From assembly GCA_014871385.1 (NCBI GenBank), contig CM026430.1, positions 5,063,040 to 5,127,039 on the forward strand: a stretch of DNA of 64,000 nt. The letters are read 5' to 3'. Position numbers and translations under genes: made by a program. A model generated the notes under the pieces. It worked only from the letters and a program-made list of their open reading frames with translations. It ran no database searches and had not been told where the DNA came from. Source of the stretch: Ceratodon purpureus. Lineage: Eukaryota > Streptophyta > Bryopsida > Pseudoditrichales > Ditrichaceae. Position 1 is the first letter of the stretch, and every line of letters starts with the position of its first letter. Below, piece by piece: positions 24,023 to 52,044 of the stretch.

Positions 24023-27000
24023 ATGGCTCAGGAATTTTCGGAGTTCGTCATGGACCTCAAGGAGGCTGGCGCGCCGTTCTTCACGATGGCATTTGCGTCG
24101 TCAACCAGCCGCTCCTCCCTCGTAAGTGAGAGCTTGCGCAATTTTAGACTCCTAAACGCTGAGTGAGTGCGTCATTGTATTGTGATACATGTCCACCATT
24201 ACCTTCCTGGATGGATCTACCTCTTGCTTCGTCTAAGTGTTCTCTCGGTGGTTGGATTCCATGCCTCCCACCATTGACGGAGTTCTTGTTCACTGAGTTA
24301 ACTCTGATTCCCCCCCCCCCCCCTCCGGACTACACTCTCAATTTCCGTGGCAGGGGATTCTTCCTCTTGCACCCGTCTACGTGAACCCCACTTTGTTGTC
24401 AGACCCAACGGCTTTAGCCCGGGGTTCATGTACGCTAGACGTAGTGCAGTTTTGGCAAAACAATTGTGTACTGTTCGGACCAAAGAGTATGTATAAGTAC
24501 TTCTTGTACACTATCCCTGGCGATCCTAGCCGTTCATCAGATTTCTGGGGGGGATGGGTATTGGAATTATTATCAGCCAATGAAGACGCCCGAAACTGAC
24601 ACAAATGATCCGTCGTGATTTGGAACCTTATGATCTGGCTCGACCTGAGTTGGCGCCGTCGAAATTTAAAGACTGTGGCTTGGCGGGAGTAGGGTTCGAG
24701 CCTCGGTGGTAGGATCTGGATTTGAACAGGGTTGAAGCATCCTACATTCTCCACACCACGTGTCGCCGTATTGTTATCCTACAGACTTGTCCATTGCATA
24801 ATGTATTTTCATCCTTCTATGGATTCAATAAAGATCCAAGAGCTATGGATAAGTGACACCTTCACCATTTTCTTAGGATAAATTAGGGATGGAAAATATT
24901 TTAATAAGACGATTGGATTTACATAGTATTCTAGACATAAGAATGGATATATATTAAATAAGAGTACTATAATGTAATGTAAATGAATTTTGAAAAGGAA
25001 TTTTGGAAACAATATGGACATTCCATTACGATATTTAGTAATGTGGTAAATGTCTTGGTTATTAGTGATAGAGGAAAAGGCGTTTTAAAGAGTTATATGA
25101 AGCAATTTTATTTTTTTACTTTGCCCCATGTTCTCAATGTTAGTTGCTTTTGAGCACATTGTGCTCGATAATAATAACATCAACTTGCACATCCATTTTT
25201 AGTATGGTAATTAAAATTGATTTTTATGAATTATTATATAGCTGGAATTAATAAAAGAGATTAATCTCATGAAGTCAAGTCTTTGTATTAATAGTACATA
25301 TTTGTATAATTGGTTATTTTCTATACGTGAGGTCTATATGATAGAGAGTTTTTTTTTTCAAATCCGAAATTAAGTGCATGATTAATCAAAGCATTCTATT
25401 GTTTACACTTTATGCTACAAAAAAGCCTTAAAAAAAAAGGTGTGTTTGTCATTACCAAAACTAACACCAAATTTTAAAGAATAATATATGAATTAATAAT
25501 GTCTTGGGTGTTTTTAATAAACCAAGCTTATTATAGTGGATATAGAAGTTCTCTACAAATTGGAAAAAAAAACATGTTCATTTCTTTGAGATTTGCCATG
25601 AAAAAGGAATCAATTCCTATTTTAGTTGTAATTCTACAGGACCTATTGATCCCTGGACTTTGTTAAATAAACGTACAATACATGCAGGTAAATAGTCATA
25701 TATAAAGACATATTTACAAGGATGTAAAGCTACTCTTTGAAAATAAAAGAATATAGATGTGTTCTCTTTGAATATGGTTATGATACAATCTTAAATTGGT
25801 AGCAAAGAAACCAATAAGGTAGCAAAACCAAATACATAAGTGGTTTAATATTTAAAAAAGAAATGAATATAAAAACAAAACCTATCAAAATCAAATACAT
25901 AAGGGGTTGAATTTGTTTTTTTTTAAAATTGTAGCCTATCATAATCAAATACAATAGAGTTGAATAAAAATTATAAATAAAAAAAAAAACACAATAAGCT
26001 ATCAAAATCAAATACATAAGGGATAATTTAAAATTAAAAAAATACAAGCCATTAAAATTAAACACATAACGGGTTGAATTGTTAAAAAAAGTAAAAAATT
26101 AAGAAGAACCAGAAAAGAAAGTACGAAAGGGTTGAATTAAACATAAGGAATTTAGAAAAAAAAATAAGATAAAGAAAAAAACACAATTAGCAATCAAAAT
26201 CAAATACATAAAGGATTGAATAAAAATAGGAAAAAACACCTTGCTACTTGAAGGCCCAATTCATATGGAGTTGAATTTAAAAAATAGAAATAAAAAGCGA
26301 TCTAGAGTCTACCTTTATTCAGAACATGGGAAGGGTTGAAAATTGAATAAAAATAGGAAAAACTAATCAGATTTCAAAATCAAATACATAAGGACCTGAA
26401 TTTTGGAACTATATGTAAATACAACTTTTAAACATTTTATATCGTACACGTTTAGATAAAATTGTTTATTGTTATTTGTGGTTTTATGAGGAAAGTCTTC
26501 TTTATTTTCCGTGCATTTCTACCATGTTTTCTTTTCATCTTTTTTTTTTTCCTTTTTTAATTCATTTTTCCCTTTCTCTTCTATCATAATTTTTTTTCTC
26601 ATTTGCTCCTTCCGTTTTCTCTTTTTCTTCTCTCATTATTTGTTTCTTTTTTCTTCCTTTTGTTTCCTTTTTTTTTTTTTTTTTTGGCCTCGAACAAAGG
26701 ATGCTATGAATCATTTTAGAGCTTCTGATAAAACTGAGTGAACATTCTATAAGGCGTTGATGTTACATGTTGGGGACTGAAGAAATAAATTCGTTGTAAT
26801 TGAAGTGATTGCTTAAACCCTCGCTTGGGTTTAAGAACCGGTGGTCACCTGTTACCATCCGTCAAGGTAACCGGTGACCGCCGGTAACCAGAAGGGAGGA
26901 GAGCGTTGGTGACTGGTGACCGGAGGTCACCATCGTCTCGCAGCTTGCCTCGAGGGAAGGCTGCGCAGAGTGTAGCGGGGTTTTGCAATGGCGCTCTTTC

Positions 27001-30000
27001 TTGGTGTTCTTTTTCGGTGAAGTCCTTGCGCGCTAGGAAGCTTGGTGTGTGGGCGGATTGTACACAGCAGTACATGATGTTTGGGGTTTAGGGGGAGGGG
27101 AGAGTTGCGTGGGGTGAGGGGATGAAGAGGTTATTTCTGGTAGGTGTTGAGGTGGCTGCGAGCAGTTTGCTAGGAGGGTAGAGGAATTTGTTGTGGGTCG
27201 GGAGTGTGCGCTTTCCGGTTGAAGTCGAGGATAGACAGAACGATGAGCGGGAGATCAGGTAGCGCAGCCTCAGCTCGTGCTGGGAGGAGCGGTTCGGCGC
27301 GGGCGAGGGGTAGGCAGCAAGAATGGAGCGACGACGATGGAGATTTGCGGTCCGCGCGCAAGAAGGCCAAGGCGGGGGTGAGAGGAGGCGGCGCAGGTGA
27401 AGGCAGCGAGGGCAATGCGGCCCCAAGGAAGGGGGCAGTTAGTATTCCAGAGGTCCGTGAGAGAGAAGGGAGACCTTGTGCGAGGGGCGACGGAGGGGGA
27501 GCTGTGGATGAAGCCGGGGGAGCTCCGAAGGCAGCTGCGAGGAAGAGAGCAAAGTCTGCTGGGAGGTCCGAGAAAGCTTTCAACAGCGTCGAGGACGTGG
27601 ACGAGGAGATCGCAAGGTTGAAGAAACCACCAAGAGAGTTGAAGAAAGGCGATTTCCAGGAGGAGTTCGGACTGCTCAACGAAGGAGACAATCCCCACCA
27701 TTTTCGAAAGAATACAGTTCAAGCAGAGTCTTTGCGGAAGTTGTTTGGGAAACCCTATGGAGACGGTGGGCGTAGTGGTTTCAACTGGCAGAATTGCGAG
27801 GTACAGGAGGTCGTTGACCGAGTGAAGTACCTGCACCCAATCCTCTACCAACACGGAGAAGATGAGACCCCGAACCTCATTACGGTGCGATTTGCAGAAG
27901 GAGTTACCCTTGAGTATGAGGAGGGTGGAGGTCGGGTCAACTGGTGTGCGTTCGGAGAGGAGACCAATAAGCGACAACGGAGCCGGTACCAGCTGGATCG
28001 CTCAAAACTGGATGAGCTTCGGAAGAAGGTCGCGGAGTCTAGGACTCTGGAAGGAAAAGGGAGGATTGATGTGCGAGGATTGGAGTGGCGGGGAATCAAG
28101 GTGGAGCATGGGTCGAGGGTGAAGATGGAGCAGGGAGTGGATGGAGGGGAGCTAGGTCGGGGGAAGCTAGGTGCCCGCAGCAACTCTGAGCAAACAGTTC
28201 GTAGTGGAGGAAGGATCCGAAGGGGTGAGGGGGACGGTGGGCTTGAATCCGCAAGGGAGTCCGGGATTTGCTTGCAGGAGGACATTAATGCTGCAGGGAG
28301 AGGCGCGGTGCTGTCGAAGGGAGTAGCAGCGGAGCGATTGCAGGTTGTGGAGGGGTTGATGGCGGCCTTACACCTGGAGTTGAAGCACAAACGCGAGTTG
28401 AAGAAGAAGGCCGGGGGGAGGCTTGATAGTGCCGTGTGGAGGAGCAAGCAATCGGAGTGGAGTGTGGAGACGTTGAAGAAACAAGAGGAGCAGAAGGCAG
28501 CGCTAATCAACACGCTAGAGGAGCAAGGATCCGACGTCTACAAGGAGAAGATTAAAATGGAGGGAATCCAAGAACAGTTAGCGGATGAGGATGTGAAGGT
28601 TGCAGCTGCAAAGGAAGAGCTGAAACTCGCGGAAGAGGAGATCCAAGCACTGACACGGGGGTTGGAAACCGGACAGGTGCAGTTCGATGCCCTTGCAGCG
28701 GAGAAATTTTTGCTCAAGCAAGGAAGGAGTGCTTCTAATTTTTGCCCCCAGCCAATGGTATATGCGCGAGGAGAACCGACTACACTAGAGATTGGTGATA
28801 CCGATGAGAGCCAGTTCATAAAGATTACTACTTGTTGCTTGTGCGATTTTCCATTTCCTCAAAACGATATAGTAGTATCTTCTTGTAAGCATCTATACCA
28901 CCCCTACTGTGCTTCGGTGTTGTATGTGCGAAGTTGCAAGTGTGTGGCAGCCGGGTGTGGAGAGTTATCTCATCCAGAATGGCATCGAAGCTTTGGTTGG
29001 GGAGAGCCATCTCCAGAGCTATTGGAGAGGGCAATGGTGTTGGGATCAGCCGAGGAAAGGAGGAGGTTACTGCAGGAGAGAACAAACGAAGCAAAGGCGA
29101 AGGCGCCCTCGGATGGTAAGTTTACGTGACTTTCGCATTCCTTTGTTGCGGTGCAATTTCAGTATGCCATTCTTTGCGTTCTAGATTCCAAGTTCTGATG
29201 CGGCATTGAGATTGTTTGCTGTCCCCAAAGTTCCACGGCTAAGGCCTTGGTTAATTTCAGTATGTAGTCTAGGCTTGACATGAGGTACACAGTGTACCTT
29301 AGAGAATGAAACAGGTAGCAAAACAAGGTGTCTACTTTGTAGGAAATATGGGGAGCTTAGGTATTGTACCTTCTCCCTACTGCTTTTGTATCCTTTCATG
29401 TGCATTTCAGACTGCCGGTAACTTAGTAAACTCTGAGTTGTGAAAGTTCGTGGGGAGATGTATGTTTAGTACCTTGTTGGCTTCTAAGGGTCTACAAAGA
29501 GTTTTGTTGTTGTAGTGAGCACCCAATAGAAAATGTAGAATGTGTACTTAAATTGCAATGGAGGAGTAAAGGGATGAATAGAATGTGTACAGTATGTGAC
29601 CATGAGATGTCTTAGTGTACTATGCTAAGAGAAAGTGTATTCACCCACCATGTACTTCAAGTAGATGCACAAACTAGTGTACATTGCAAAACACGTTTCG
29701 GTTTAGGGTAGGTACTACAGTTTTGTCTTTGTACAGAGTATTAAATATTTAGGTACGTGCAACCAAGTAGTGAGAGTACTTTATGTACTCCAGATCCAAG
29801 GTTTGGGTTGTCAATGTACTAACTTGGATTGTACGCAGTGAGCACTATACTAGACGGAGCTACAACAGGTATAGTATTAGAACCCCTTTTGTACTCTTAG
29901 TCCTATAGGTTTCTCATTAATCTAGTGGTGTTTAGGGAGTACAGTAAGTACTCTTGATTAGTACACCGCTCAATTAGTGTAGTTCTTATAGGTAGTTCTA

Positions 30001-33000
30001 ATACTAGTTCATTAGTACATCCTATACAGAATTGTATTTGTAGTACATTAATTACAAATTGTCACACTGTCTAATGTAAATTGTTATGGCAGGCTCAAGC
30101 TTGAGGTTCGCACCACCTGTTTCAGCAATCAACACTCCAAGTCGCTTTGTGGAGGGAGAGACAAGTCAGGGAGATTGCTTCATACGGGAAGATGCGGGTT
30201 GTGTAGAGGCACCGACTCTTATGGCAAGGGCCCCGACCCGGGGACTATGGGGAGAGATTAGTGTAGGGAAGCGGGTTCAACCTCTGGTGATGGCTTGCTT
30301 GACGGGTGGAAATCCCTTGAAGGGCACTGAACCTGATCTCGATTCTGGGGATGAATCTTCGGAGGATGAAGAAGGAATCAAAATGTCTCCTCTGCATTCC
30401 ACCTCGGGCACAAGTCTTGAAGGGGACAACGAATCAGACGGCACTTCATCCGACCAGTGCGCGGGGGATGGTGAGGAGGAGGAGCCCGAAGATGGTGATC
30501 AATGTGTCCAGCCTCAGGAGGGTTCACTATCGGCCCTGCCTGAGGACACTCCAGCGACACCATCTGCAGGAGATGGCATAGAGTATGGAGGACGGACGAA
30601 GGATATTAGTGCAACTGGAGGGGGCAGCAATCCAGGGGTACAAGGCGGCGGTCCAGCGGGAGAAGGTAGTCCAACAGGAGGAGGCGGCAGTCCAATGGTA
30701 GGAGGTGACTGTCCAGCGGGAGAAGGAGCACTAGCAAGAGGAGGCGGAGGCGGAAGGCTAGCGGTAGGAGGCGGCGTTCCAGCGGGAGGGGGCAGCAGTC
30801 CATCGGGAGGAGTTAGTGGCTTGGCGGGAGGGGGCGGCAGCCAAGCAGGAGGGGGCGCCAGCCCAACGGGAGGTGCGGTACGTGAAGGTGTGGCATCGAA
30901 GAAAGGGTCCCTTGGGCGGGAAGAATTGACACGGCAGCCGGGAGATGGGGAGAAGGACAAGGACAAGGAGCCTTCGCCGCAGGCTCTCAGGAGCGCCCCA
31001 CCAAGAGCAGGATCGCAGTGCTTGCCAGGACGCAAAGCAAAGGCAACAAAGGAAGGGGAGCCCGTAGCGAAGGGAGAGGAGCTCGCGGCAAAGAAGAGGG
31101 AACCCACAGCGAAGGAAGGGGAGGTGGCAGCGAAGGAAGGAGAGCCTGCGAGGTCGGCGCTGGAGCCCACAGCAAAGGAAGTGGAGCTGGCTGCGAAGGA
31201 AGGAGGGCCTGCAGCGAAGGGAGGGGGGCCCGCGGCGAAGGAAGGGTCGCCCGCAGCGAAGGGAGCGAAGTCGATAGTGGAGAGTCCGAGATCCCCTTTC
31301 AAGCTAAGGGCAAAGAGGCAGCGAGGTCCAAGCGTGTCCGACGACACATCACCTACGAATCACACTGCACCAGAGAACATCTACTCGGCTGAGAAGACCA
31401 CCTATAAAGAATTGAGTGAGATTGCTGGGGTTAGTGGTAGCCCGGCAGTTGCAGATGGGCAGGTGCGGACCAGAGCACGCACTGCTAAGGAGGCGGAACA
31501 CGCATCAGAAGAATCACCTTCATCGACAAAGGGTAACTCTAAACGGGGAGAGAAGGGGAAGGGTGGTAAGGTAGGTGGCGCTGTCTCAGTGAAAAGACGG
31601 CGAGGCGCCACATAGAATGAGTGTTGAAATGTGGACTGTTTTCACAGTTCATTACTTTTGTTTTTTTTTGTTGTTGGTATATCATCTATTGACCTGCGCT
31701 AGCATGCTTGGATAGAATGGTTCCGCAGGTACTACCATGTATCATACCTCATCTATGAGGCCCTCTAACAAGAATTGTTCACGGCTGAGATGCAATTTTT
31801 TTTCACTTGGCTTTAATGTTTTTTCTTTGCGTTTTCGCCTTGTTGAATTATTTGATCTTTTTCCTTAGTGAATAACTGTGCAGTAGGTTCTTGGTTGCTC
31901 CGCCTGAGGTGTTTGCTTGCACTTCATTTTTTTCGCATCATGACTTGTGGAAGGTGGTCTGGTGGGCTGTGATTCAACCAGGCCGACATTTGGTATAATC
32001 CTGAAGATTTGTCTAATGGGCTCGAGAGGGTGCCTATCCTTGTTGGTCAGTCTGATCTTGCTATGCGTTATTTTCAGTATGTGAACTCTAGTGTACCCTA
32101 TGATCAGGCCCAAGTACCTACTACCCTAGGGAGTTTCCGCTCCGGGGACTACTGCTTGTGTTCCTCGGAATGTCTCCGTGGGAGTGGTACATGTGCATGT
32201 CAAGCGCAGTCCCTGGGTGGAGTCGGCTACAGCGATGGAGGAATTTTGGAGGACATGGCTCTTGATCAATTCAACAACAGCGATGCTAACTACTGTAAGC
32301 CGAGTTCACGGTGTCTAAGTGGAAATGAAGTTTGTGAGGGTCATGTGCCTCGTCCATTTGTTAAGGAGTGCAATGTTAAGTGTAGGTGTCGTGGTGATTG
32401 TGGCAATCGTGTTGTTCAGCAGGGGATGAAGTATCGAGTAGAGGTTTTTCGTACAGCCCTTACAGGGTGGGGGATTCGGACATGTGAGCTTATACCTAGA
32501 GGTGCGTTTGTTTTTGAGTTGATGGGAGAGATTTTAACTAATGCTGAGCAAATGTTTAGAAACTCGGGGGTAGAAGGGGGTCAGTCCTATAGCTTGCAAC
32601 TTGATGCTGATTGGGCCACAGAGCGGAATTTGGACGACAACAGTGCTTTGTGCTTGGACTCTACTCGATTTGGGAATGTTGCCAGATTTTTGAACCACAG
32701 GTTAGAGTCTAATTCCATTATCTATACATCGGCCGCCCCTTCCTTGTATCCAGTCCGTTGTGCCCTGACAGTGGACCTTTTGTACTACAGGTGTGAAGAC
32801 TCTAACCTAGTGGATATTCCAGTGTCAATAGAGAGTGTTGATCGCCGATATTACCATGTAGCATTCTTCTCTAGTCGTATCATATATCCTGGAGAGGAAC
32901 TAACTTGGGATTATGGCACTGATTTCTGTAAAGACAATCCGGATCTGCCTAATTTTACTTGTAAATGCAAGAGTACTAAGTGTAGAGACGGTACAGTACC

Positions 33001-36000
33001 ACTAGCAGTTCGAAGGCCACCTCGTACACCGCGTAGGAGTAGATGACTTTGGCATTTTGTCATATGTTTACTTTGTTAAGCATGGACACATTTACACTTT
33101 CTTCTGTATTTTTTCATGCGGCTGCCCTAAGTGCATGTATAACCGGAATTATTTTCAGGTCACAGTTATCCTATGTACTATTTGTAGGGCTGTATCATAA
33201 ACTTCACTGAATCTTCATACATTTTTTTGATATATCATACTTACAAGTCGGCTTAGTGCAAAATCTTTCAGCACTTAAGGAACAAGCATTCATCTACAAT
33301 AAACATAACACACTCCAGTTAAATAAGGAAGAATTTAAGTTGAGTTCATAAACTCAGGCAATAATTTTAGGTAGAGAATCAATATTCTAAGTCCTAAAAG
33401 TACTTTCGATGGTACTGTTTGAGTAGTTTTAGTACTTGTCTAAACACCAACCATATCACAGCTGTCCTCAGATGTGTGCTCTTGAAGTACCGCTGTCCAG
33501 TGCTCCCTGTAAAGGACCTAAAACAAAAAGAAAAAAAACTACAGTACCTAATACCCAGCAAAATGTAGAACTATGATCGTCCAGCCTGACTCGAAACGAA
33601 AAAAGAAATATGGAATGGGTGATACTACATAAATTATAAGAAGAAGATTATAAAGAATAAAAAAAAGAAAGGGATTGCAGGTTCTCATAATCACAGACTA
33701 CTATGCCAGATAGTAGATGACTGAAGCAAAAAAAAGGGGGAGCACTTGGATAGCGGGACATCCTAGAGCTCACTTTCAGTCAGACAAATACCGAAGCATT
33801 TGTTTGACTTGTATCATCACGGGACCAGTACTTCTAAAACCACCGTCAAATGAGAAACAATCCTGAATCAACTTGTACAAAGTGTACACAGTGTACCAAC
33901 TTGTACTTAATCTGCATTGAACGCCCACCACTCTCGCAAGGCATCTTCACATATCCTTTGCGTTTCACTGGAGATCTTGTATACAGGAGTACCCTTTACC
34001 CTGTGTGTAGCAAGAACCATCGGAAATTTGCAAGCTCTAACCAGATGGGCATCGATATGTGCATCAACTGCTTTGTCACACAATACATATGTCTTCTCTC
34101 CACGACCGTACTTCTTGTAGTATTTTGCCCTGATCACAAAGTCTCCAGCCCTGAATACGCCCCCCCATGGGCAAGTCATGGGTTCTGTTAAGACAAACTT
34201 CTTGGCTTGACACTGTAGAATGTAGAATTCTACACCGTCTTCGTTCTCTTCCTCCGCTGGAATCATAAAGTTGTCACCAATGTCCACCAAGTCTCCCACC
34301 TCTTCTGAAATGCCGTCATACACCCAGTTTGTTTCCTCGTCAATTTCTTCAATTTGATGAGCCACGGCACTTGCACTCAATGGAGAGAGCCTCTGGACCT
34401 TCCACTCCTGCACATGTGACAAGTTCTCACAATCAGTCCAATCACAGTCTATGCAAGAATTACAGAAGCAAGACAACTCACGAGTTCTAAGCATGGTAGG
34501 ATCAGTCATAGAAAAGCCCATGATTGAGTAGAGACTCTTCGAGCCTGGCAGAGTGTTACACTTCACACTCTTGTTACTATGATCAACTTCTGTATTGCCA
34601 ATCAACCAGAATACTCGGGATAGAGGAGCAATTCTGGTATTAGCATATGAGCTGGGAACACGCTCTGTATACTTCTCCTCTAAGAACTCTACAACTTGAG
34701 ATGCATTCTGTAAGGGCCTCAAGGGATTCTGAATTTGTTCAGCAGCAAGCGCCCTCTTCACCACAGCCCCTGCCCCATCCCATTCTCCCTTCCCGTGAGC
34801 CGATTCAAAATAGTTCCATCGCATCTTACAACCGCCGGTGAGCGCAGGGTACCGAGCAACAAAATACATAGCTGTTGCACACTTAAACTGGGCACTGCAT
34901 CCATCACTGTACACCCAGTGCTCCTCCGGAGTCAACCCCGAATCTCTTAGCCAATCCCAATGCAACAGCAAACAGTGCTGCACAAACGCTGAGTCGTGTG
35001 CCTTGTCGTCGGATATATAGAAGTGGGTTTGCTTCATGGTCTGCTCGCCTTCCTTCCAGATCGTAATGTGCACCAAGATGGTCACACTCGTACTGAAGTA
35101 GTACAAGCTCTGGACCTCGTTCTGGATAGCAAAAGTATAGTTCTCCGCATAGTCAATATGCGATATGACAACTCCCTCAGGCACGTTCTTCATCATCAGT
35201 TGGCACTGCTCATCCTGCCATCGTGCTTTGAAGTTGTGGGTGATGAAAGCCGTTATGGTTTTCTCCATGTAGGAAAGGAATTCGTGGGCAGCTGTCTCTC
35301 TGAAAGCCTCCCGCAGCCGTTTCTTCACCTTTCCAGTCTGTGCATCCACTCCCACCTGGTAGTACTCAAAACACTTCCATTTCACAAGAGCCGTATTAGG
35401 TGCAGACAACTCTAGAGGACAGATAGGAAGGAGATGGAAACCACACTCAGAACAGTCGCCCATAAGGCACTCAAGTCTATGCCACACATCATATTCTCCT
35501 TTTGGACACACACATGACTCCCACATCAATGTTATTCGCGAGAAAACATGCTCGTGTGCACAACAAACCCCCTCCGCATCGCCTGCACACACTTGACAGT
35601 CACAAACACATGTCATCTGTGCATGCAGTCCTCTGGTCTTCTCTCTGAGGTTGCTTAATCCAACCTTCATCATGTCCATCTCGACATGATATATACAACA
35701 ACATGTATTCCGTTCCTTTAGTTTTCGCACCCACCACGGCTTCAACCTCTCGAAGGCTCTCTGCCGCACACTGCATTCTGGGTGGACTTCTTCAAATCGT
35801 AGGAAGAATGTGGTCTGCAAAACACATACGTGAATACATTAGGTACAAAAGGTCTCCTAGGCTTAAGTCCATAAAGACAAATGGTACATTATTGTACTGA
35901 ATGTAAAAAACCACTAACTCAAAGTACAAAAATGCATCGACACATACATTCAGAAGCATTGTGTACAATTCACGCTGCTATAAGTACTTCGTGGAGAACC

Positions 36001-39000
36001 AACTTGTACAATATGGCAGGGTTTTAAGAGTACCGTCGGTCTCTAAAATACTCAAAGTACTGAACGTGGTTAAAACTGTACATGGAAACTGATTAGTCCA
36101 ATTGTGAATGCTAAATTAAGTAAACAATGTACATGCTCTAGTATATTCTTTATACAATACGTACATTGAAGGAACTTCTAATGTACATTTATAACTTTAA
36201 ATCCCTACTGATACAACACTAAGTAGTCTCATATACAAAGAGACAACCGACTTGATATCACATAGTACTAAGGAATACGCTTAGAACCACTTCTGTACTC
36301 CTCATTCATAGTAGTTAGTATTACAAACCGTTTAGAAGAATCAATGAATACGATAAGTACAACTGTACAAGTGATATTTCGCTCTAGAGAGACCACATAA
36401 CAAGCTTAACTTACAAAGAGTACACCTCCCAGCTGCTCTATGGACCGGAGTAATGTAAGGACTTTTTTTTCCAACATTATATATCTAAGACTACAGACTA
36501 GATAGAACACGCAGTACACCAGTTACAGGGCAACTCATGTCGAGTACTCTCTAATTTTTTACTACCTTCTTCGCACTATGATATATCAAAAGTACAAGGA
36601 CTAAGCATTCAGTTCTGCCAAAAAAACATGAAATCTTTGTAGGATCTGACAACTTACCTGAGTCTCACAGAGATAATGTGTTGGATGCGGCTCGGCCCAC
36701 TCTCTTCGGCCTACTCTGTGTTGCACAATGTCCTTCTTGTTGGGCGATACCTTGGTCTGACCATTCCACCAGGCCTCTATACACTGCTTCACATAGTCAA
36801 ATAGACCTCCTCTCTTCTTCCGATGGAGACGAAGACTACACACCGTGTCTGCTTGGTTGGGGGCATAAACCCTTCTATTCAAGGCAATACTGATGCTTGC
36901 TTGTGTTGTATCCAGAACACGTGACAAAGGCCTCACCCCGTCAATACCTAAACTAACAGCGGCATCCAACAAGGCACTCTTCCTTGCTAAGCGCTCGCTT
37001 GAGTTTGCCACCTTCACCAACTGCAACTCGTTCTTGAAGTTTTCAATAAAAGAATGAATGACCTTTGCTTCCTGTGGCCGAGCATAGTAAACAGGAAGCA
37101 AAGGCGAAATAGTGTTATGACGCATGACCCTCTCCATAACATCTCTCCTACTTGATGGACCGGGACAACTTCTCAACTCCTCGACTACATACTGTGCTAT
37201 GCGAAGGGACATCCGATTTAACTCCCGCACTGACATACTATCTTCAACATCTTCATTCGGCAACACCGAAGCTAAAACCAGGGTCTCCTCGTGTCTTTCT
37301 CTATCTCTAGCTCTTTGACGAGCCTTCCTTTCCCTGGCCGCATTTGTAACCGCTGCCTGCTGCTCTTCCCGCAAGCGAGCCTCAGTCTGCCTAGCTGCAG
37401 GACCCGGTCAACTAATACCATGTCGTAACCGCTGTCTCTTAGCAGTGTTACCCATTGTTCTTATTCTAGTAGAAAACCACACGTCAAAAACCAAGCCACG
37501 CATGAGATATGAACACTGAAGCAGAGTACATAGTTGAGGAGTTGAGAAGCTAGCACGATTCAATAGTACTGCATGAGAAACAAAGCAGAATCACAGTGTC
37601 ATGAGTCTAAGACGTAAACTCACCCTTGAGCCTTTTCCTCTCTACTTCCTAATTGCAACTGACTCGCAAGAAGCAGTGGGAGATCCAACTGAAACCCTTC
37701 CGACCGAAACAGATGGTGATCGCTCAAAGCTGCCGCTGGAATACGAATACGAAACTGGACTCATGAATAGAGAACGCCTGGGGGACTCATCTACATTGTT
37801 GCACTTGCCAAGGTAGAAATCCCGATTCCCTTGTTTAGACACTGGGGTTTCTTCAACATATCCAGACTCAGATATCTCACTAAGTGAATGGTAACAACAA
37901 GATTCGAACTCACTAATCACCTCCTTTGTAAAGTAAGAAGTAATCAGTCTCTGAACTAGAACAGTTTGGTGTGCCGTGGACCTTGACATTATTCAAAAGC
38001 AAAGAGGAAGCAGCTAAAAACTCATGAACTCGATTTGTCTCGGAACACACAATGTAAACTACAGCATTCAACCGAAACCCTTGCACGCAGCATACACAAG
38101 GAACAGCAAAGTGAATCAAACAAGCAACAGTGTACTGTAGGCGGGATGAGGGGACATGAACGAGAGAGACGATGACGTGGAAAAAATCACAAGGTGGCGG
38201 CGTCTTCATGACACGGCGGCCGACGTCAGAATAGGATTTGGCATCAAAAACAAGGCAGTAGTTATTACACATTACGAGTACAATATATACTTCTAAGTAC
38301 ATCATGTACAATTAGCACACAGGAAGGCGTCGAGGGCCAAGTGACGAAAAAATGATTTTTACCATAATTTGAGAGAAGGCCATTCTAGAAATATGCCCAG
38401 CCGTCAAGAATCACAGACCCGATGACAAAAAATTAACATTTTCTACTTCGTAAGCCGTTGCAACCGAAACCAGCATTTACTTCAAAGATTTGTGCAAATA
38501 AAGTAACGTACTTGTTAAATTGACGACGAATCCCAGAAGACTGGTTCTTCTTATCTCCACTACAAAGAAAGAAAACAAAATTTGAACCTTTAATGTTTAC
38601 AAAATTTGTACTTTTCTTAAATCTGAATATAGTGTGACTTTTCTACAGTACCCTACAATAGTACTTTTTTTTGGAGGTTAACTGTGTTTATTAAGTGACT
38701 CGATAACGCACAAGAGACTTCACATATGTAGAACTAAGCAAAGCAAACCAAAAACCAGAAAAGAAACTTCTACGCTGAGGTAATACCAAGTACAAAGTAA
38801 TGTACTCTTGACTATTGTACTGTGACTCAAAAAGTACATTGGTCTAGCGTACTTGAACCCCCCGTGGCATTGCCCGAGGTCCAGCTCCAATTTAATGTTC
38901 CTAGGAGTTAGTACATTTACCTAACCTTTGTGGCGTTAACCCGCAGGAGATTCCTGCCGCATTCAGCGCGAGAACAGGCTTCCTGGGACAGCAGAAGTGT

Positions 39001-39664
39001 GCGCTTGTTACGTCAATGAGCCACAGCACAGAGTGGACCATCAACTTCCAGCTCTGGAACGTCGACGGGCTCACCTTCTTCTTCGCCACGTACGGGTCCG
39101 GGTGGAGTCGATTCCTAAAAGACATGGACATACGAGTCGGCACTCTCCTCATTTTTGAGCCCGCCGACACCTCATGCCTCGCTGTCACCATCGTACAGCC
39201 CAAGTCAGAGCGTTTGTCGTTTCGGAAGACCCTTCGACGAACGCACACGGCGGGATTCAAGTCAACGAAGATGGTAACTTAGACTGCACCCTCCATACTT
39301 TCCCCTCGGCTCCTGCCTCGCTTGTACCCTCGATCTTCGTCGTCATGCTCCTGCATTTTATGTTGCAGACGACCCCCCCTCTTGTCTTCAGATTCGGTGC
39401 CTCACCCGTTCTCTCTGACAGGACGTTCCGGTGAAGTTCTGGCGCACGATTGGTGTGGACAAATTCGACAACCGTACGTATGTTCTAGACGGGCCTCATG
39501 CTCGACTCGCAGTACACTCTGAGGTTCTTTGCCGGAAGAACCAAACCGTCTGCTTTATGGGGCGTGGGTGGTCCGACTTCTGCAGGAACAACGAGGTCTG
39601 CACCGGGGACTCGCTACTGTTTACCCAGGTAGACACCTTTGTCTTCCACGTTACTCAAGTTTGA
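24023..39664 (+). CDS. Protein with two B3 DNA-binding domains (REM-like), first intron invaded by a transposon
   Basis: Exons 24023-24121, 38947-39273 and 39422-39664 join in phase 0 with GTAAGT/CAG, GTAACT/CAG ends and encode about 222 residues. The first B3 domain spans exons 1 and 2: APFFTMAFASSTSRSSL joins directly to EIPAAFSARTGF and later reads GSGWSRFLKDMDIRVGTLLI, a textbook B3 order. The second, in exon 3, starts DVPVKFWRTIGVDKF and contains FMGRGWSDFCRNNEVCTGDS. B3 domains of this type bind DNA in plant transcription factors. The reconstructed domain crossing a 14.8 kb intron shows the two ends belong together. The gene may be a host REM-like gene or part of an older element. Expression through such an intron is not shown. 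Confidence 0.75.
24421..24440 (+). repeat. Left TIR of the RING-SET element
   Basis: GGGGTTCATGTACGCTAGAC. The right end gives the same sequence on the minus strand with one substitution. Confidence 0.75.
24790..26500 (+). repeat. AT-rich region with degenerate tandem repeat
   Basis: From about 25780 to 26400 the words ATCAAAATCAAATACATAAG followed by a TTGAATT-like segment recur roughly every 60-80 bp with changing spacer, at least seven times. Base composition is far more AT-rich than the genes around it. No coding region. Confidence 0.7.
26501..26690 (+). repeat. Long pyrimidine tract
   Basis: About 190 bp of almost pure T/C on the plus strand, including a run of about 20 T near 26669. 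Open frames over it are compositional and not read as genes. Confidence 0.8.
26840..26935. promoter_or_regulatory. Cluster of GGTGACC/GGTAACC palindromic words upstream of the RING-SET gene
   Basis: GGTCACC, GGTAACC, GGTGACC, GGTAACC, GGTGACC and GGTCACC occur within about 95 bp, some as inverted pairs. The cluster lies about 300-400 bp before the start codon, so a role in transcription or transposase binding is possible. Function is inferred from position only. Confidence 0.35.
27243..33046 (+). CDS. RING-coiled coil-SET protein, predicted histone lysine methyltransferase
   Basis: Exons 27243-29115, 30093-31570 and 31982-33046 join in frame (GTAAGT/CAG phase 1, GTAGGT/CAG phase 0) into about 1471 residues. 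Residues 1-190 are basic and disordered, 190-250 form an unknown domain, and 378-480 form a coiled coil. About 530-580 is a RING-like finger (CCLC, then CKHLYHPYC, then CKC and GC). Residues 625-1117 are low-complexity Gly/Ser and Ala-Lys-Glu repeats. From about 1170 there is a Cys-rich pre-SET, then SET (GWGIRT, RFLNH, ELTWDYG) and post-SET (CKCKSTKC). The order resembles plant SUVR-class H3K9 methyltransferases. The usual NHSCxPN motif here reads NHRLESN, losing the zinc-binding Cys, so activity is uncertain. No stop or frameshift is seen. It lies in a TIR element, convergent with a transposase. Confidence 0.8.
29116..30092 (+). other. Intron 1 of the RING-SET gene, dense in GTAC
   Basis: By eye more than 20 GTAC tetramers occur in 977 bp, where about four are expected by chance. 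The intron has a GTAAGT donor and ATGGCAG acceptor. The same enrichment is seen in the transposase intron. Confidence 0.7.
30600..31290 (+). repeat. In-frame low-complexity coding repeats
   Basis: Part of exon 2 of the RING-SET gene. 30600-30880 repeats codons for Gly-Gly-Gly-Ser-Pro-like units, and 31030-31280 repeats Glu-Gly-Glu-Pro-Ala-Ala-Lys-like units about ten times. Both keep the frame, so they vary in units of three bases. Confidence 0.8.
33047..33906. other. Convergent 3' flanks of the RING-SET and transposase genes
   Basis: AT-rich, no gene. Near 33885 GTACAAAGTGTACACAGTGT forms a GTAC-rich patch just beyond the transposase stop. Polyadenylation signals are probably here on both strands but none is distinctive. 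Confidence 0.5.
33907..37455 (-). pseudogene. Two-exon DDE-like transposase with one nonsense codon
   Basis: Exon 1 is 37455-36658 and exon 2 is 35814-33907, with a GTAAGT donor and TTGCAG acceptor in phase 0. The frame gives about 901 codons. From the ATG at 37455, codon 16 is TGA (37410-37408) and the frame then stays open to the end. Exon 1 is basic and helical, ending in PNKKDIVQHRVGRR. Exon 2 has a Cys/His cluster (CVCDCQVCAGDAEGVCC), then HIDYAENYTF (about 35150), YSDGCSAQFK (about 34900) and HGKGEWDG (about 34790). This motif order matches a transposase-like family I know from animal genomes, where DFAENY, SDG..SQ(Y/F)K and HGKG..DG recur. I cannot name the superfamily. The Asp residues are candidates for the catalytic triad. 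Downstream ATG codons could rescue a shortened protein. Confidence 0.75.
35815..36657 (-). other. Transposase intron, dense in GTAC
   Basis: About 21 GTAC tetramers in 843 bp. Near the donor, at 36637-36650, TGTAGGATCTGACA differs at one base from the palindromic satellite box of the other element. Confidence 0.7.
37456..38841. other. Right subterminal region of the RING-SET element
   Basis: Rich in GTAC, mostly non-coding. Two minus-strand frames, 37989-37642 (Ser-rich) and 38311-37913 (Cys/Val-rich), are open but no splice path joins them cleanly to the transposase, so they are not called as genes. Confidence 0.45.
38842..38861 (-). repeat. Right TIR of the RING-SET element
   Basis: Minus strand reads GGGGTTCAAGTACGCTAGAC. 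Two further G on this strand precede it where the left end has C. Confidence 0.75.
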
Positions 39665-43879: not shown

Positions 43880-44277
43880 ATGCCTCCAGCTGAGTGTGAC
43901 CCTGCTAGTGTGGAAGTCCCACTATTGGACTAGTGAGAGGAGGCTTCTTTGGAGTATCCTCCCTAGCAGCATTCCCAAAAACCTTAGATGGATCCTTGGG
44001 GGTGATATGAACATGGTAGAAAAGTCCTCCGACAAGACATCTGCATGTAGCCGAATTATTGGAGAGCAAGAGAAAGGAGTCTGGGAGACGGTCTTGAGAG
44101 TGATCTTGACTTAGAAGACTCTTTCAAGCCTGGCCGCGGCCTAAAATACTCCTGGGATAACGGGCGTCTGGAAGGGGCTAGGATTCTGGCTAGATTAGAT
44201 CGTCTTTACACATTCCATAATAACCCTGGTGTGGGCCCGGCCTCTGTCTCTCTTATTTCATTCGAGGTGATTGCTCT

Positions 44278-47240
44278 TTGTCCGATCACCTTCCGGTGGT
44301 GATGGTCATTCGTTTTGGAGAAAGTCCAAAGAAGAGAGGATCTTGGAAAATGAATACCCGTTACATTCTAGAAACAAGTGCAGAGATCAAAAGACTCTGG
44401 GAATCACTGCCGGATTGTTTGCCCTTTTTCTCCAAGCTCAGACGGGTGCTGCAATTCTACAAGGAGTACTCGAAGACCAAAGCTGCTGCCTACAGACAGA
44501 AAGAGGATGAGTTGAGGAAACTCCTGACTGAGGCTCAGGAGGAGCTCCATTCCAATCCGAGCGCCTTCGACAAACAATATGCGGTTGCCTCAGCGAAGGA
44601 ACAAGTGTCCGAACTTGAGAAAATCAAATCTAAAGGTATGAGGATTCGGGCGCGCGTCAAATGGAGGGATAAGGGCGACGCTTGCAACGGTGAATTTTTC
44701 CGCATGGTTCAGGAGAAGCCAAAAACTCAAGTAATCACGCAAATTAGAACTAGCTCGGGACTAGTGGTCAAGCAGCAAGCAGAATTGGAGGCCGTCTGTC
44801 GCCAGTTCTACGCGGAGCTCTATGCCCCCCCTCCCTCAGTGAATGGCTCGGATTTGGAGAAGGTCCTGAGCATTATCCCGAACAAGGTGACCCAACACAT
44901 GAGGGACAGTTTGGGCCAAGAGCTCTCTCTGAGCGAGCTTGAACAGGCCGCGCGGGACCTTGTCAAAGACATGGCCCCCGGCCCTGACGGCGTGAACATC
45001 TGTTTCTATACTCACCATTGGAGCACAATAGGACCAGACTACCTTAAGATGGTGAATCAGGCTCTGGTTGATGGTTGCTTACCAGCAAGCATGGTTAAAG
45101 GAGCTATCATGCTCATTTTCAAAGCAGGACTGAAGGAGGATTTGGGCAATTGGAGGCCCATCACGTTACTGAATACATCTTATAAAATCCTTGCCAAAGC
45201 TCTTCAATCCAGATTGAAGCCGCCTCTGGTTGACCTGATTAGTTCGGATCAAACCGCATTTGTACTAGGTAGATTCATCCTCGACAACGTCCTAGTAGCG
45301 CACGAAGTCATTGATATTGCCAAACGCTCGAAGCAACCTCTCCTGTTTCTGAAAGTTGACTTCAGGAAAGCTTTTGATAAAGTTAGCTCGAGCTTCCTCT
45401 TTGAATGCCTGAGCAGGTTTGGTTTGGGCCAGGACTTCATTCGCATGGTGAAGCTCCTCTTCCAAGGAGCTTCGGCCTCGGTCCTTGTGAACCGCCAAGC
45501 ATTAGAAAGCTTTGAGATCTGCAGGGGGGTCCGGCAAGGGTGCCCCCTGGCACCCTCGCTTTTCATCATCGTAACGGAGGTTCTTAACATCCTCCTGAAG
45601 AACGCCAAAGTTGCCGGTCTAATTTCTGGTATCCGGCTTCCTTACTCTCCCTAGACCCAACTTATTTCGCAATTCGCAGATGATACATCTATTTCTTTGG
45701 AGGTGAGCTCGCCCAATTCGATCAAAATTTTCATTGAGCTTCTGAATCTGTTTAAGTTAGTCTCAGGTCTTGAGATAAACTGGGCCAAGAGCCACGCATA
45801 CTAGTGCGCTCACTCTGACATTCCGGAATGGCTCCACAATTTTGGTTGGCAATGGGCTGGACCCCAAGACATGTCTAAACTCTTGGGTACTCCTTTTGGT
45901 TTGAACCCTAACACTGAAGATGTTGACTCTTTCTTGGTCCAACGGATCCGTAGGAAGCTTGAGTATTGGTCTTCCACCAAACTCTCGCTGGCTGGTCATG
46001 CTGTTATTGTGAAATGTAGGTCCTGCTGTCCTCGCTTCGGTTCTTCCTATCGATCTGGAGTGGCTCCGTTAAAGCGATAACAAAGGTTAAAGCTCTGCTC
46101 CGGAACTACTTATGGGCAGGTTCAGAACATTCCACGCGCACGAGAGTCAATTGGTATGACTGTTGTGCGAGTAAAAAGATTGGTGGCCTTAACCAATTGG
46201 ATCCACACGAGGCCACCACTAGCCTTCTTGGCAAATGGATCATTGTTGCATACTTACCCAGTTCATCTAATCTGCAGACCATTCTCCGCAGCAAGCTCTG
46301 GTTCTCGCCTCCCGGCTCTCGGGAAAAGATCCTCGTGGCCTCCCAATGCTCAGTGGGGGCTAGTCAAGAATCACACTTCAGTCCCCGGCTCTAAACCCTG
46401 GAGTAAAATCCATTTAGCCTGGCGCAAACTGAATCGCCATCTCAAAGAAGCGCCCCCCCTTTGCGTTGCTGATACATGCCAGAAATCTCTTTGGTGGAGA
46501 GTTGATTTAAAAGGTGGTGAGGTGAATATCTCACAAGAGAGCGCGCTGTCCCTTTTCAAACGTGGCTTAGCGACGGTTGGCGACCTGTGGAACAGTAGGC
46601 TCAGGGGCTTTAAACCTACCCCATTTCTCGCATTAGAATTTAAATTGTCACCTCAGGAACAAGCCAGCATCGACGCTCTGAAGAACAGACTCATTGCACA
46701 GTACGGGAGGCAACTTCTAACTGCAGCCAATGTCATCAAACTCGGAGACTGGATTGGTGGCTTTACAAATCCCAATGACGAAACTCCTTGTTTCCTCATT
46801 CAAGCAGGCCGCAGCTGGTGCCCCAACTCAATCAACGACGGTGATCCTCTGCCACCAATCCCTCCTGAATATCCCCTTTACTCGGTCGGAACCACTTCTG
46901 GTATCCTCATCTGGGACAAGACTCAAAACCTCATCAACCTGGCAAGAAGCTGGAGTGGCCCCCTTCGAGCTGTTCGGGTCGTGCAGGTTGGAAAATTGGA
47001 AAATAACCGCAACTCAACCTTAGTTTTTTATGGCCAAGTTGGCAGGCTTCCTTACTTCGACCCTGTGCACTGGCGCTCGGATGACAAAACCACCTTTACC
47101 ATGTACTCTGCAAAGATTGGAAAGCAGCTGATTGCACAACGCAACAGTTTGAAGAAGCCCGCACAAGAAAAATGGAGGCATCAAAGAAGAATTGATTTCC
47201 CCCTCAAGTGGAAGAAAGTTTGGGCTTCAAGAGCTTAGAA
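44278..47240 (+). pseudogene. LINE ORF2 reverse transcriptase remnant
   Basis: 44278-45653 is open and shows the RT blocks PGPDGVN, NWRPITLLNTSYKILAKAL, FLKVDFRKAFDKV and GVRQGCPLAPSLF. TAG at 45652-45654 precedes the continuation TQLISQFADDTS, so the catalytic FADD block is separated from the fingers. A second TAG lies near 45802. After a frame change, 46156-47238 is open again and matches the C-terminal region of such elements (Trp-rich, with LFKRGLATVGDLW). Retrotransposition by this copy is not possible as it stands. Confidence 0.9.
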
Positions 47241-48845: not shown

Positions 48846-51800
48846 ATGAATATTACCGTGGCCGATGGCGAAGTGCAACAATATGACAAATTAGCCGACT
48901 TCTCGCCAGTGGACTCTTCGTCAGGTAATTGCTTGATATCCTTGCTTCAGAATCAGTTGCTAGTAATGCAGAGTAGTTAGTCGGCGATCAATCATTTAGC
49001 TCCGGGAGTGATGCAGCCATCTCAAGCCATTGTAGTGACAAATGCGGTATATGCTTGAATGTCTGCAGTGTGGGAAGTGTGCGCGGGGACGGAGGACTTT
49101 GGCACAGTGGACTTCAGCACGGCTATCAAGGACGAGTTCATCGACTCATGTCCCAACGGGCCGTCGTTTGAAGAGGATAATTCTTCGCCGCTTCCATGGG
49201 GCTTTTCAGTGCAGCCCGTGCCCACGTTAAAGTCCAGCAACAAGTGCAGCATTCGTGACAATGTTCTCCGTGAGGTCATGGTGAGTGAGGAGACCCTGCA
49301 GAGCGCCGTAGCCAGGCTGGGCGGAGGAGCGCAGGGGCTGAAAGTGCTGATGGACCATGTTCCCTACTGGGCCTCGGAGTCTCACGATGCTGACGTCGCC
49401 GCTACCATCCGGAAAGGAATCGTCGACCGTGGCAACATGCCTGCCAATTGTGGCGGTGTCAATGCCAATGTGCAGAATGTGCAGTGGAAGTATTATGGAA
49501 ACCGTGGTAAGAATGGAGTTAAAGCCAACTCCTTAAGTAGCAGCAGCTAACTACGATTCCATTGCCATGATGCCAAGATGCACCCTTAATATAACATGCC
49601 ACGATCACTTTCACAACGATAAGTCCAGACTTCATTACCAATCCATTTCAAAAATAATGGAGCAGATTACTACTTGTGAGTCTGTCGAGACACCTTGTGG
49701 TTAGCAGTTGGTAAGTGGGTTGTACTCAAGGAATATTGGATGCACTTGTGGTAGGCTCGACTATATGCGAGCCCACCAACCGTGGAGCGGCGTACACGAG
49801 GGCGCTGCGGAAGTCGCACATGGTGCGGCAATGGAGGCATTCGCCAAGGGCACAGCGAGGTCTGAACAAGTCACAGTGGGAGCATCAGTCTCGAGCGCAA
49901 TGGCAAACTGGAGCGCACCAGTCTTGGCTTCAGGACTTGGACCCCGAGTTGGGCAATGCCAATGGCAAAGTAAGCATCAATTACTCACCTCATTATTTAA
50001 TTTTCCTGCATATATATCCAGCTTCCTTAAAGTGTATTTCAAGCACAGTTGGGTCAGTCCCAGATCCACTCATGAATAAGTATTTCGATAAATTCATCGA
50101 CTTGTTTTAGCTTAAGCCTCAAGTGCAGAGCCGCTTCACCTGTTACGTGGACTTCCATTTGCCATGGATGAAAGTAAATGTGAGCTCCTCATCATCTGCA
50201 GTACCTGATTGCAGCAGCACAGCCGCCATGAACATAATTGACACATGACTGAAATGTATCAATAGTTCTCTGTCACAGGGCATCTAACCCCTGTAGGTCC
50301 CATGGGTATGGTAGGTATGTGGCAATATATTTGGCTCTAAATTGGGATTTTAATGGCTCTTTAAAACCACATTGGTGTGAATTCTAAGTATGATTTCGAC
50401 CTCAGACCTATTAAAGATGTGGATTATTCCATATACAACCAAAATACACCACCGAAGTACACCATATTCCACAACCAAAAACATGTTGTATTAGGGGCTA
50501 AGTGTTGCATTTTGTTTGGCTCGTTCAGGGGCTCGAGTTTCTCTTTCAGAAGGTGTTGCGAGCAAGTGACGTGAGCAGCTTGGGACGAATAATTTTGCCC
50601 AAGGTAATTAAGTTACAATTGTTTCTTCAATGCACTGATTTTATTTTTGACAAAAAATATTGAATAGTTGGTTCCATTGCAGTGAGTAGTAGCTTCACAG
50701 TATTATTTTCTAGTATTCAGATATCAAAAACACGGCTTCACTGTCAACTCAGTATTTTATGGATGTTTGGTTCTTTCAGAAAGACGCAGAAAGACATCTT
50801 CCGTTTCTGTACGAGAAGGAAGGCATGATGATTACTTTGGAGGATTACCATTCCGGGACCTTTTGGACGGCCCGTTACAGATTTTGGCCCAATCACAAAA
50901 GCCGAATGTATTTGCTGGAGACTATTGGTGAGCTCTCGACTCATTGGAGTGTTAGTTGTTTGAATTGGTTAAAGCGATTAAATTATTTGAATTATTATTA
51001 ATTTTTGACACAGACGAAAACTTTATTTCATTGCGAAGGTAGTCCCAAAAACATGTGAGGTTTACACCGACCTACTCAAAACATGTCAGATACAGATCTG
51101 AAGAATGGGATTTGAGGCACTTAACTGAAACTTGTGCGTTGTCACGAACAGGGGAATTTGTGAACTATCATTGTCTTCAAGAAGGAGATTTCCTGATCTG
51201 CTACCGAAACAGACAAGGAGGCTATGTAAGTTCTAATCATTATACTTTATTAGCTACAGGTTGACAAATTTAGACTACTATAGTTTCTACGAAGTACAAG
51301 TTTTCGGTACTGTTTCCTTGTGCTGTGTTCTAACAAGTTATAATGGTCCTTCTCCCTTTCTCTGCAGGTCATTCGAGGCCAGAAAATGCCGCCTAATGTG
51401 AAAGCCTCTGCCAAAGGACTGAGTCCCAAAAGCACCCAAGGGAGAGAAACTACTGAAACGAAGACCCTCAATAGCACATCGATGTCACCAAAACATCAGG
51501 TAGCACATCATCATGGGCCTGGACTTCACTTCGGTGGATTTTTGTAAAGTTTTCAATGTTCTCCTAAGGTTTATTTAAAAGGCAGCCTCATGTTAGTGAC
51601 ATTTGATTCCTGACATTTCCTACCATTGTGGTTGTACGTGCACAGTTCTTGGACGGAGATCAAAGCACCCCCGGAACTACAGATAGCAACTCGGATCTGG
51701 CCAGTTCGTCTTTTGAATCTTTGGGGTCTACATTTAGAGGACTCAGTGATGGACCCAAAGGTTTTGAAGATGGATATGGCCGCCAAGAAAGCTGCATGGC

Positions 51801-52044
51801 GCAGCAAATCGATTACCGTTACAACAATTATGAGGATGAGGTACCGAAAACTGATGGCTTCGTGCCAACATCAACCAAGGCGCTCGCTTCGCATGATTCG
51901 GGCTATGACTCAGTTGTGGAGATGCTCGCAATTCAACGCTGCAGACCTCACTGGAGCATTTTGCAGTGCCATTGTCAGGTCTTGGACACGTTCGGTCGCT
52001 GCCTCCACAATTGTTTACGTCTTCTCGAAAGTTCGAGCATCTAG
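48846..52044 (+). CDS. ABI3: ABI3/VP1-type transcription factor with B1, B2 and B3 regions
   Basis: Nine exons join with agreeing phases: 48846-48924, 49069-49506, 49755-49969, 50111-50173, 50529-50603, 50780-50927, 51152-51225, 51368-51499 and 51646-52044, about 540 residues. B1 is at about residues 99-117 (SEETLQSAVARLGGGAQG). A B2-like basic stretch is at about 187-201 (RALRKSHMVRQWRHS). B3 is at about 268-370 (RASDVSSLGRIILPKKDAER, RFWPNHKSRMYLLE, LQEGDFLICYR). In plants this family works in the nucleus, binds RY elements through B3 and mediates abscisic-acid and desiccation/maturation programmes. The protein is shorter than angiosperm ABI3 and its N-terminal acidic part is brief. The last exon reads antisense through the end of the neighbouring STIG1-like gene, so the final 40 or so residues are doubtful. 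Confidence 0.85.

Follow-up and report, generated by a model that had tools for sequence, protein, structure and literature searches.

A moss transposon with a SUVR4-like SET gene convergent with its transposase gene: a candidate histone methyltransferase accessory

Introduction

DNA transposons that carry a gene for a SET-domain histone methyltransferase are known from oomycetes. HarbingerS and MuDR elements of Phytophthora have such a gene, as a passage of PMC12730594 reports (Kojima and Jurka 2014), and an excerpt of PMC4067079 describes a SET-bearing proto-Helentron in Phytophthora infestans. Here we analyze a stretch of 64,000 nucleotides from the moss Ceratodon purpureus (assembly GCA_014871385.1, contig CM026430.1, positions 5,063,040 to 5,127,039), hereafter the window, which is part of the contig we call C10. 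Within it lies a transposon that contains RING-like exons, a SET gene and a transposase gene. Comparison with the rest of the genome indicates that a group of moss transposons probably carries the C-terminal half of a SUVR4-type histone H3 lysine 9 (H3K9) methyltransferase gene as an accessory to the transposase, beside a RING-like protein.

As summarized in that passage of PMC12730594, the Phytophthora HarbingerS and MuDR elements share with the moss element the combination of a DNA transposon and a SET histone methyltransferase gene, but they live in oomycete hosts and belong to other transposase superfamilies. The proto-Helentron differs more, being a rolling-circle element whose intronless SET protein of ∼153 residues is compared with Clr4 in the excerpt (PMC4067079). 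Other known transposons carry an enzyme that modifies DNA methylation along with their transposase, and evasion of silencing has been proposed for them; the predicted enzyme of the moss element is of the histone type. The regulator of the plant Vandal elements is sequence-specific and not a SET enzyme, and SETMAR is a primate host gene fused to a transposase rather than a mobile unit. What the moss element has in common with each, going by the passages drawn on here, is an epigenetic regulator of its own in a plant DNA transposon, since a Vandal protein regulates the silencing of its element (Hosaka 2017, in PMC12730594), and the linkage of a SET domain to a transposase, as in SETMAR (PMC8994322).

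A model that had seen only the letters of the window proposed that a DNA transposon carries its own RING-SET gene, and knew of no such pairing in plants (the first-pass annotation). In the literature searched, mostly without subscription journals, we found no plant SET–transposon pairing, no SUVR4 origin of such a gene and no trace of this transposase lineage. SET-bearing transposons have a precedent in Phytophthora, and the kind is therefore already known.

Boundaries and copies of the element

Positions 24422–38860 of the window form one transposon of 14,439 bp with 19-bp terminal inverted repeats (TIRs) and a 4-bp target site duplication (TSD), CCCG. The left TIR (GGGTTCATGTACGCTAGAC, plus strand) occupies 24422–24440 and the right, inverted one (GGGTTCAAGTACGCTAGAC, minus strand) 38842–38860, so that the element's termini read GGG..CCC; the two CCCG copies lie at 24418–24421 and 38861–38864. 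In a search for inverted repeats the true pair ranked only 14th of 119, behind mainly A/T-rich chance pairs, and the borders were fixed by breaks in homology and by comparison of the TSDs among copies. The SET gene does lie between the TIRs of a single element, as the first-pass annotation had it.

We searched a genome of 362.5 Mb in 151 contigs for further copies. Perfect 4-bp TSDs flank all five near-identical copies for which both ends were recovered, the window copy included; those of the other four (two on C8, one each on C13 and C4) are TTCT, AAAA, AAGA and CATA. With TIRs and TSDs of fixed length, the unit is a mobile element, probably of the TIR cut-and-paste type. Identity to the window copy is 99.0–99.9% in the compared ends, which points to recent movement. 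The five copies are spread over four contigs other than C6, although C6 also has right ends 98% identical to that of the window.

Recurrence of the SET–transposase pairing

We then asked how often the SET and transposase genes occur together. All counts in this section are lower bounds, drawn from parts of match lists: the SET entries comprise 114 of 118, 27 of 131 and 25 of 150 matches from three lists and 61 of 145 from a fourth added later, those left off being, by eye, repeats of listed loci, host exons or short pieces. With the first SET list, at least 46 of 69 listed transposases had a SET match on the opposite strand within 6 kb, and the extra matches raised this to at least 51 of 69, in each case with a convergent SET match beyond the transposase 3' end at a distance of 48–1,524 bp. 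By contrast, control positions (5' of the transposase, or with the SET on the same strand) gave 0 of 69 among the matches listed in the first SET list, and when 23 transposases were retested with the added matches none had a misplaced SET. RING exons follow the same layout: at least 22 of the 69 transposases have one no more than 12 kb away, on the side where the SET lies, and in at least 49 of 71 RING matches a SET match in the same orientation follows 1,373–3,599 bp downstream. The first-pass annotation had suggested asking whether the two genes recur together between the same TIRs; they do recur, and five copies have both TIRs and TSDs.

The pairing extends to a distant clade of five loci (L004–L008), where a SUVR-type SET match is accompanied by transposase pieces on the opposite strand; that of L008 shares 48% identity with the transposase of the window. 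That the same pairing occurs there indicates that it is old within the elements of this genome. The SET exon borders of this clade differ from those of the window's family, and the intron that in the window interrupts the SET domain after NHR (see below) is absent in all four of its loci with a readable SET frame. The far-clade SET may represent a separate capture.

Copies are numerous on C6, a contig of 110.5 Mb that makes up 30.5% of the assembly and that we presume to be the sex chromosome; 98 of the 150 SET matches listed fall there. Among the matches listed, stop-free transposases are less frequent on C6 (7 of 37) than elsewhere (14 of 32; Fisher P = 0.036).

The SET gene and its probable SUVR4 origin

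The SET gene lies on the plus strand. Its first exon, exon 3 of the model presented here, spans 31982–32700, encodes a SUVR4-like pre-SET region and the first part of SET, and ends in NHR. The in-frame 90-nt segment that follows (32701–32790) coincides in position with an exon border of host SUVR4, and exon 4 (32791–33046) supplies the rest of SET (CEDSNLV..EELTWDYG) and a post-SET CxCxxxxC. In all six loci examined the segment has intron borders, with AACCACAG preceding the GT and an AG followed by GTGT; it measures 90 nt in five of them and 82 nt in L073. Because the L073 version keeps the frame only if it is spliced, we regard 32701–32790 as an intron. Its removal restores NHR-CEDSNLV, as in host SUVR4, and the alternative that the whole third exon is coding was ruled out.

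These results modify the first-pass annotation in part. Its exons 1 and 2 and the SET start at 31982, with their GT/AG borders, are retained, but its undivided third exon is not, and the length of about 1471 residues falls to 1,441 (four exons summing to 4,326 nt) once the intron is taken out. The pre-SET/SET/post-SET module it had recognized is confirmed: the earlier third exon matches PF00856 (SET, E = 6e-15) and PF05033 (Pre-SET, E = 2e-9) in Pfam, and the post-SET motif is present. GWG, NHRC, EELTWDYG and CxCxxxxC, together with 17 of the 20 cysteines of the corresponding host region, are kept in each of the four aligned spliced SETs. The closest solved structures by sequence are EHMT2/G9a chains. 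The predicted SET protein retains the motif and cysteine set that a working enzyme should have.

A block of the type TGTTGGG lies at about 31935–31981, just before the SET acceptor, and is alike between far families. Its frame relative to SET apparently shifts, and it may be a splicing signal or some other element.

The SUVR-type assignment of the SET domain is likewise borne out by comparison with the host's own SUVR4 (P0061, Ceratodon purpureus M758_1G137900), which matches exons on contig C1 at 89–100% identity. Host and element proteins have the same pre-SET/SET/post-SET layout and are 47% identical over 313 aligned residues, sharing NHRC, EELTWDYG, the 17 cysteines and one intron position. 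Alignment with the host protein is interrupted near residue 541 in the host gene and in the elements alike. On the other hand, the element's match runs unbroken across the positions of the host exon borders near residues 380 and 452, and the ubiquitin-binding WIYLD domain (host residues 13–75) has no match in the window's exons. Unlike host SUVR4, the element's SET lies in a TIR element present in many copies and has a RING-like exon ahead of it.

In a tree built from 39 of 46 SET matches, with one match lacking the motif dropped, transposon-type SETs separate from host SUVR4s (94 of 100 replicates, a bootstrap value that is not settled). The phylogenetic check that the first-pass annotation had suggested is thus answered only in part, with separation from the host genes but without a firm inner branching order. 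The pairing may have been gained once or twice: topology tests run both with the far clade and without it (P0085, P0080 and P0066 excluded) reject neither arrangement (P = 0.74, 0.63 and 0.54).

Selection on the three genes

To assess constraint, we estimated the ratio of nonsynonymous to synonymous substitution rates (dN/dS). Between families, the SET gene gave 0.285 (95% bootstrap limits 0.21–0.42) and 0.276 (0.20–0.40) at synonymous divergences (dS) of 0.57 and 1.2, respectively, with L072 left out for its broken frame. The transposase gave 0.06–0.10 against the window, and the RING exon 0.12–0.17 between families, based on 11 of 29 aligned rows (stop-free and longer than 450 residues, the window among them). 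Among closer copies the values are higher for the transposase (0.26–0.48 among L071, L072 and L074) and, for RING among near-identical copies, 0.15–0.39 with wide limits. These estimates show purifying selection on all three predicted genes between families. The predicted SET gene is constrained over the long term, though less so than the transposase, and this constraint supports a role for it in the life of the element.

The same analysis revealed mosaicism. For the element at 15.29 Mb on C10 (L031/L070), dS relative to the window is 0.90 for RING, 0.12 for SET and 0.25 for the transposase, which indicates that parts of elements have been exchanged between families.

One or two proteins from the plus strand

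Exon 1 (27243–29115, plus strand) encodes a conserved N-terminal region, a Lys/Glu-rich stretch and, at residues 531–572 (28833–28958), a RING-like finger with the pattern C-x2-C-x13-C-x-H-x2-H-x2-C-x10-C-x4-C. Its eight putative zinc ligands, of which the last pair is C-x4-C, are invariant or nearly so among 10 aligned proteins. The Pfam zf-RING match to exon 1 stays below the cut-off. The eight-ligand pattern agrees with the RING-like finger of the first-pass annotation, as does the low complexity of exon 2 (30093–31570, plus strand) with its linker.

Exon 2 ends in the donor AAG/GTAGGT (the slash marks the border). Several of the ten loci compared belong to one family; with that limit, the donor is found in 9 of the 10 (absent in L078), and the SET acceptor CAG/G also in 9 of the 10 (absent in L071). 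By eye, the phases of exon 2 and the SET exon agree. If the donor is not used, translation would continue through 31571–31615 (VGGAVSVKRRRGAT, then a stop), and in the nine donor-bearing loci this read-through begins with VGG and meets a stop codon within 18 residues, in most cases following a basic tail. It may constitute a second, conserved protein end.

We lean towards one spliced RING-SET protein, predicted from these borders, perhaps with intron retention giving a second product. The competing model, which is less probable but has real weight, is a pair of genes, one encoding a RING-type protein that terminates at 31615 and the other the SET protein. It is compatible with any functional reading of the element. 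The short VGG read-through in nine of ten loci speaks for it, and so does an upstream ATG that some families have in the reading frame of the SET exon. However, the recurrence of donor and acceptor, with the one-family limit just given, and the agreement in phase argue for splicing, and the upstream SET frame is closed by TGA in the window, in L070 and, by alignment, in L080 and L081.

The transposase gene and its affinities

The putative transposase gene runs on the minus strand in two exons, the first at 36658–37455 and the second, which holds a DDE-like core and a C-x-C-x2-C motif, at 33907–35814. It is convergent with the SET gene, as the first-pass annotation described. Two transposase alignments were compared, one of which (A2) comprises 37 of 42 protein matches; D229, D312, D354, H348, K350 and C-x-C-x2-C show little or no variation in at least one of them. 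The protein matched no transposase family in Pfam, NCBIfam or the PDB and had no match in IMG/VR. Nor was the KDZ transposase domain found among the matches of 38 members, which included one weak CxC7 match (E = 0.11).

Exon 1 of the window copy contains a stop codon near the start of the transposase. That codon is stop-free in all 29 other right-end loci, three of which have different stops in the same short stretch. The window copy is therefore probably not autonomous.

Among the protein matches, the sole relative from another named plant is a distant one, P0036 of Riccia sorocarpa, with 31% identity over 57% of the length. Most of the similar proteins come from metagenomes. These were dropped as evidence for other species: one of them, P0052, matches two loci of the Ceratodon genome at 100% identity, so that such matches may come from Ceratodon itself, and they were not used to argue for a wide distribution.

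That the element belongs to a superfamily already named, Lanisha, known either with its SET gene or apart from it, is rather unlikely in our view, and would be compatible with any function. Maumus, McDaniel and Carey, who proposed the name, reportedly worked on Ceratodon, and this favors the identification. According to the passage of PMC12730594 that cites their proposal (Maumus, McDaniel and Carey 2020, Repbase Reports), Lanisha has C(2)C and H(3-4)H between the second D and the last E, and its clade (CMCT) has mostly CA..TG ends. Compared with that description only, the moss transposase alignments show C-x2-C but no conserved H pair, and the GGG..CCC ends of the element do not agree with CA..TG.

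What the SET product may do

In plants, H3K9 methylation is directed largely at transposons, and the moss element carries a gene, under selection, of the class that writes this mark. We infer that the SET product is active on H3K9 and works on the chromatin of the element itself. Given an active enzyme, the system would offer a direct test of what an element gains from H3K9 marks, be it escape, restraint or targeting. Both the product of SUVR enzymes and the meaning of plant H3K9me3 are unsettled, and the many natural variants in this one genome would make both testable. The system would also bear on how a very large moss chromosome came to be filled with repeats.

A number of observations weigh against an active accessory of this kind. 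The evidence weighed here comes from sequence comparison. Among the matches listed, 18 of 69 transposases have no SET, which may be absent or simply unlisted, and the near-identical copies on C4 and at 7.31 Mb on C8 have no listed transposase match. Constraint is weaker in some close pairs: dN/dS between the window and L070 is 0.42 (0.21–0.68) for SET, that between the window and L015 is 0.48 (0.34–0.73) for RING, and SET reaches 2.0 between L071 and L074, with very few changes. Against an anti-silencing role in particular, the primary study of SUVR4 is said to have tied trimethylated H3K9 (H3K9me3) on transposons to repression. Its title, as listed among the references of PMC7218100, places the H3K9me3 made by SUVR4 on transposon chromatin, and two passages of that review conflict on which SUVR4 product accompanies ubiquitin. 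A SUVR-type SET can moreover be inactive, given that SUVR1 and SUVR2 are reported there as inactive in vitro (PMC7218100).

Against this background, the direction we find likeliest, tentatively and by analogy, is anti-silencing through H3K9me3. In the relevant passage of PMC7218100, Arabidopsis SUVR4 converts monomethylated H3K9 (H3K9me1) to the di- or trimethylated form in vitro and binds ubiquitin through its WIYLD domain, and in a passage of PMC13017857 H3K9me3 is found in transcribed euchromatin of Arabidopsis seeds. The SET product would carry H3K9me1 on to H3K9me3, a mark permissive in Arabidopsis. Nucleosomes so marked would be kept out of the loop between H3K9me2 and DNA methylation, and the loop would be starved. 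A RING-like module in the place of the ubiquitin-sensing domain fits anti-silencing but is no proof of it.

We consider anti-silencing somewhat likelier than self-limitation, a doubtful alternative in which the enzyme marks the copies of the element with repressive H3K9 methylation and so keeps transposition low enough for the host to survive. The 98 of 150 listed SET matches on C6, with its 30.5% of the assembly, are what silent, tolerated copies might look like, but low recombination on what we presume to be the sex chromosome would explain this accumulation as well. Selection among copies would also hardly maintain a gene that represses its own element, but SET is constrained. Self-limitation draws further support from the writing of H3K9me2 and H3K9me3 by SUVR-type enzymes and from the SUVR4 title just mentioned, as given in PMC7218100.

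A role in targeting or assembly, with the SET product methylating non-histone proteins such as the transposase, or marking chromatin for insertion into heterochromatin, seems improbable. The tight convergent partnership with the transposase and the many C6 copies are in keeping with it; however, the window copy adjoins a B3-type reading frame (see below), and the five near-identical copies are not on C6, even though right ends 98% identical to the window's occur there. Weakest of all is the view of SET as a passenger, a functionless captured host fragment: DNA transposons often capture genes and many copies have stops, but dN/dS well under 1 at dS 0.57 and 1.2, the 17 cysteines kept, the constant order and spacing and the same pairing in the five far-clade loci make it very improbable.

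Anti-silencing can also be cast in a wider form, which taken as a whole we judge quite unlikely. The elements would then form a superfamily with a SUVR4-derived H3K9 methyltransferase as a core gene, acquired before its main clades split; conversion of H3K9me1 to H3K9me3 would counter silencing, a RING-like ubiquitin ligase would have replaced the ubiquitin sensor, and the elements may have helped to fill the moss sex chromosome.

Insertion site and other features of the window

When the flanks of the element (24354–24421 and 38947–39273) are joined over one TSD, they form an open stretch up to the insertion point. To the right of the insertion, in the same frame but after a stop, is a B3-like domain (PF02362, E = 2e-5, below the cut-off). 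Judged from these reading frames, the element may lie inside a B3-type gene.

Elsewhere in the window, positions 51743–52714 on the minus strand encode a repeat protein rich in cysteine, which matches Stig1 weakly (PF04885, E = 3e-4). A reverse transcriptase frame at 44224–45654 (PF00078, E = 5e-26) is probably a fragment resembling a long interspersed nuclear element (LINE).

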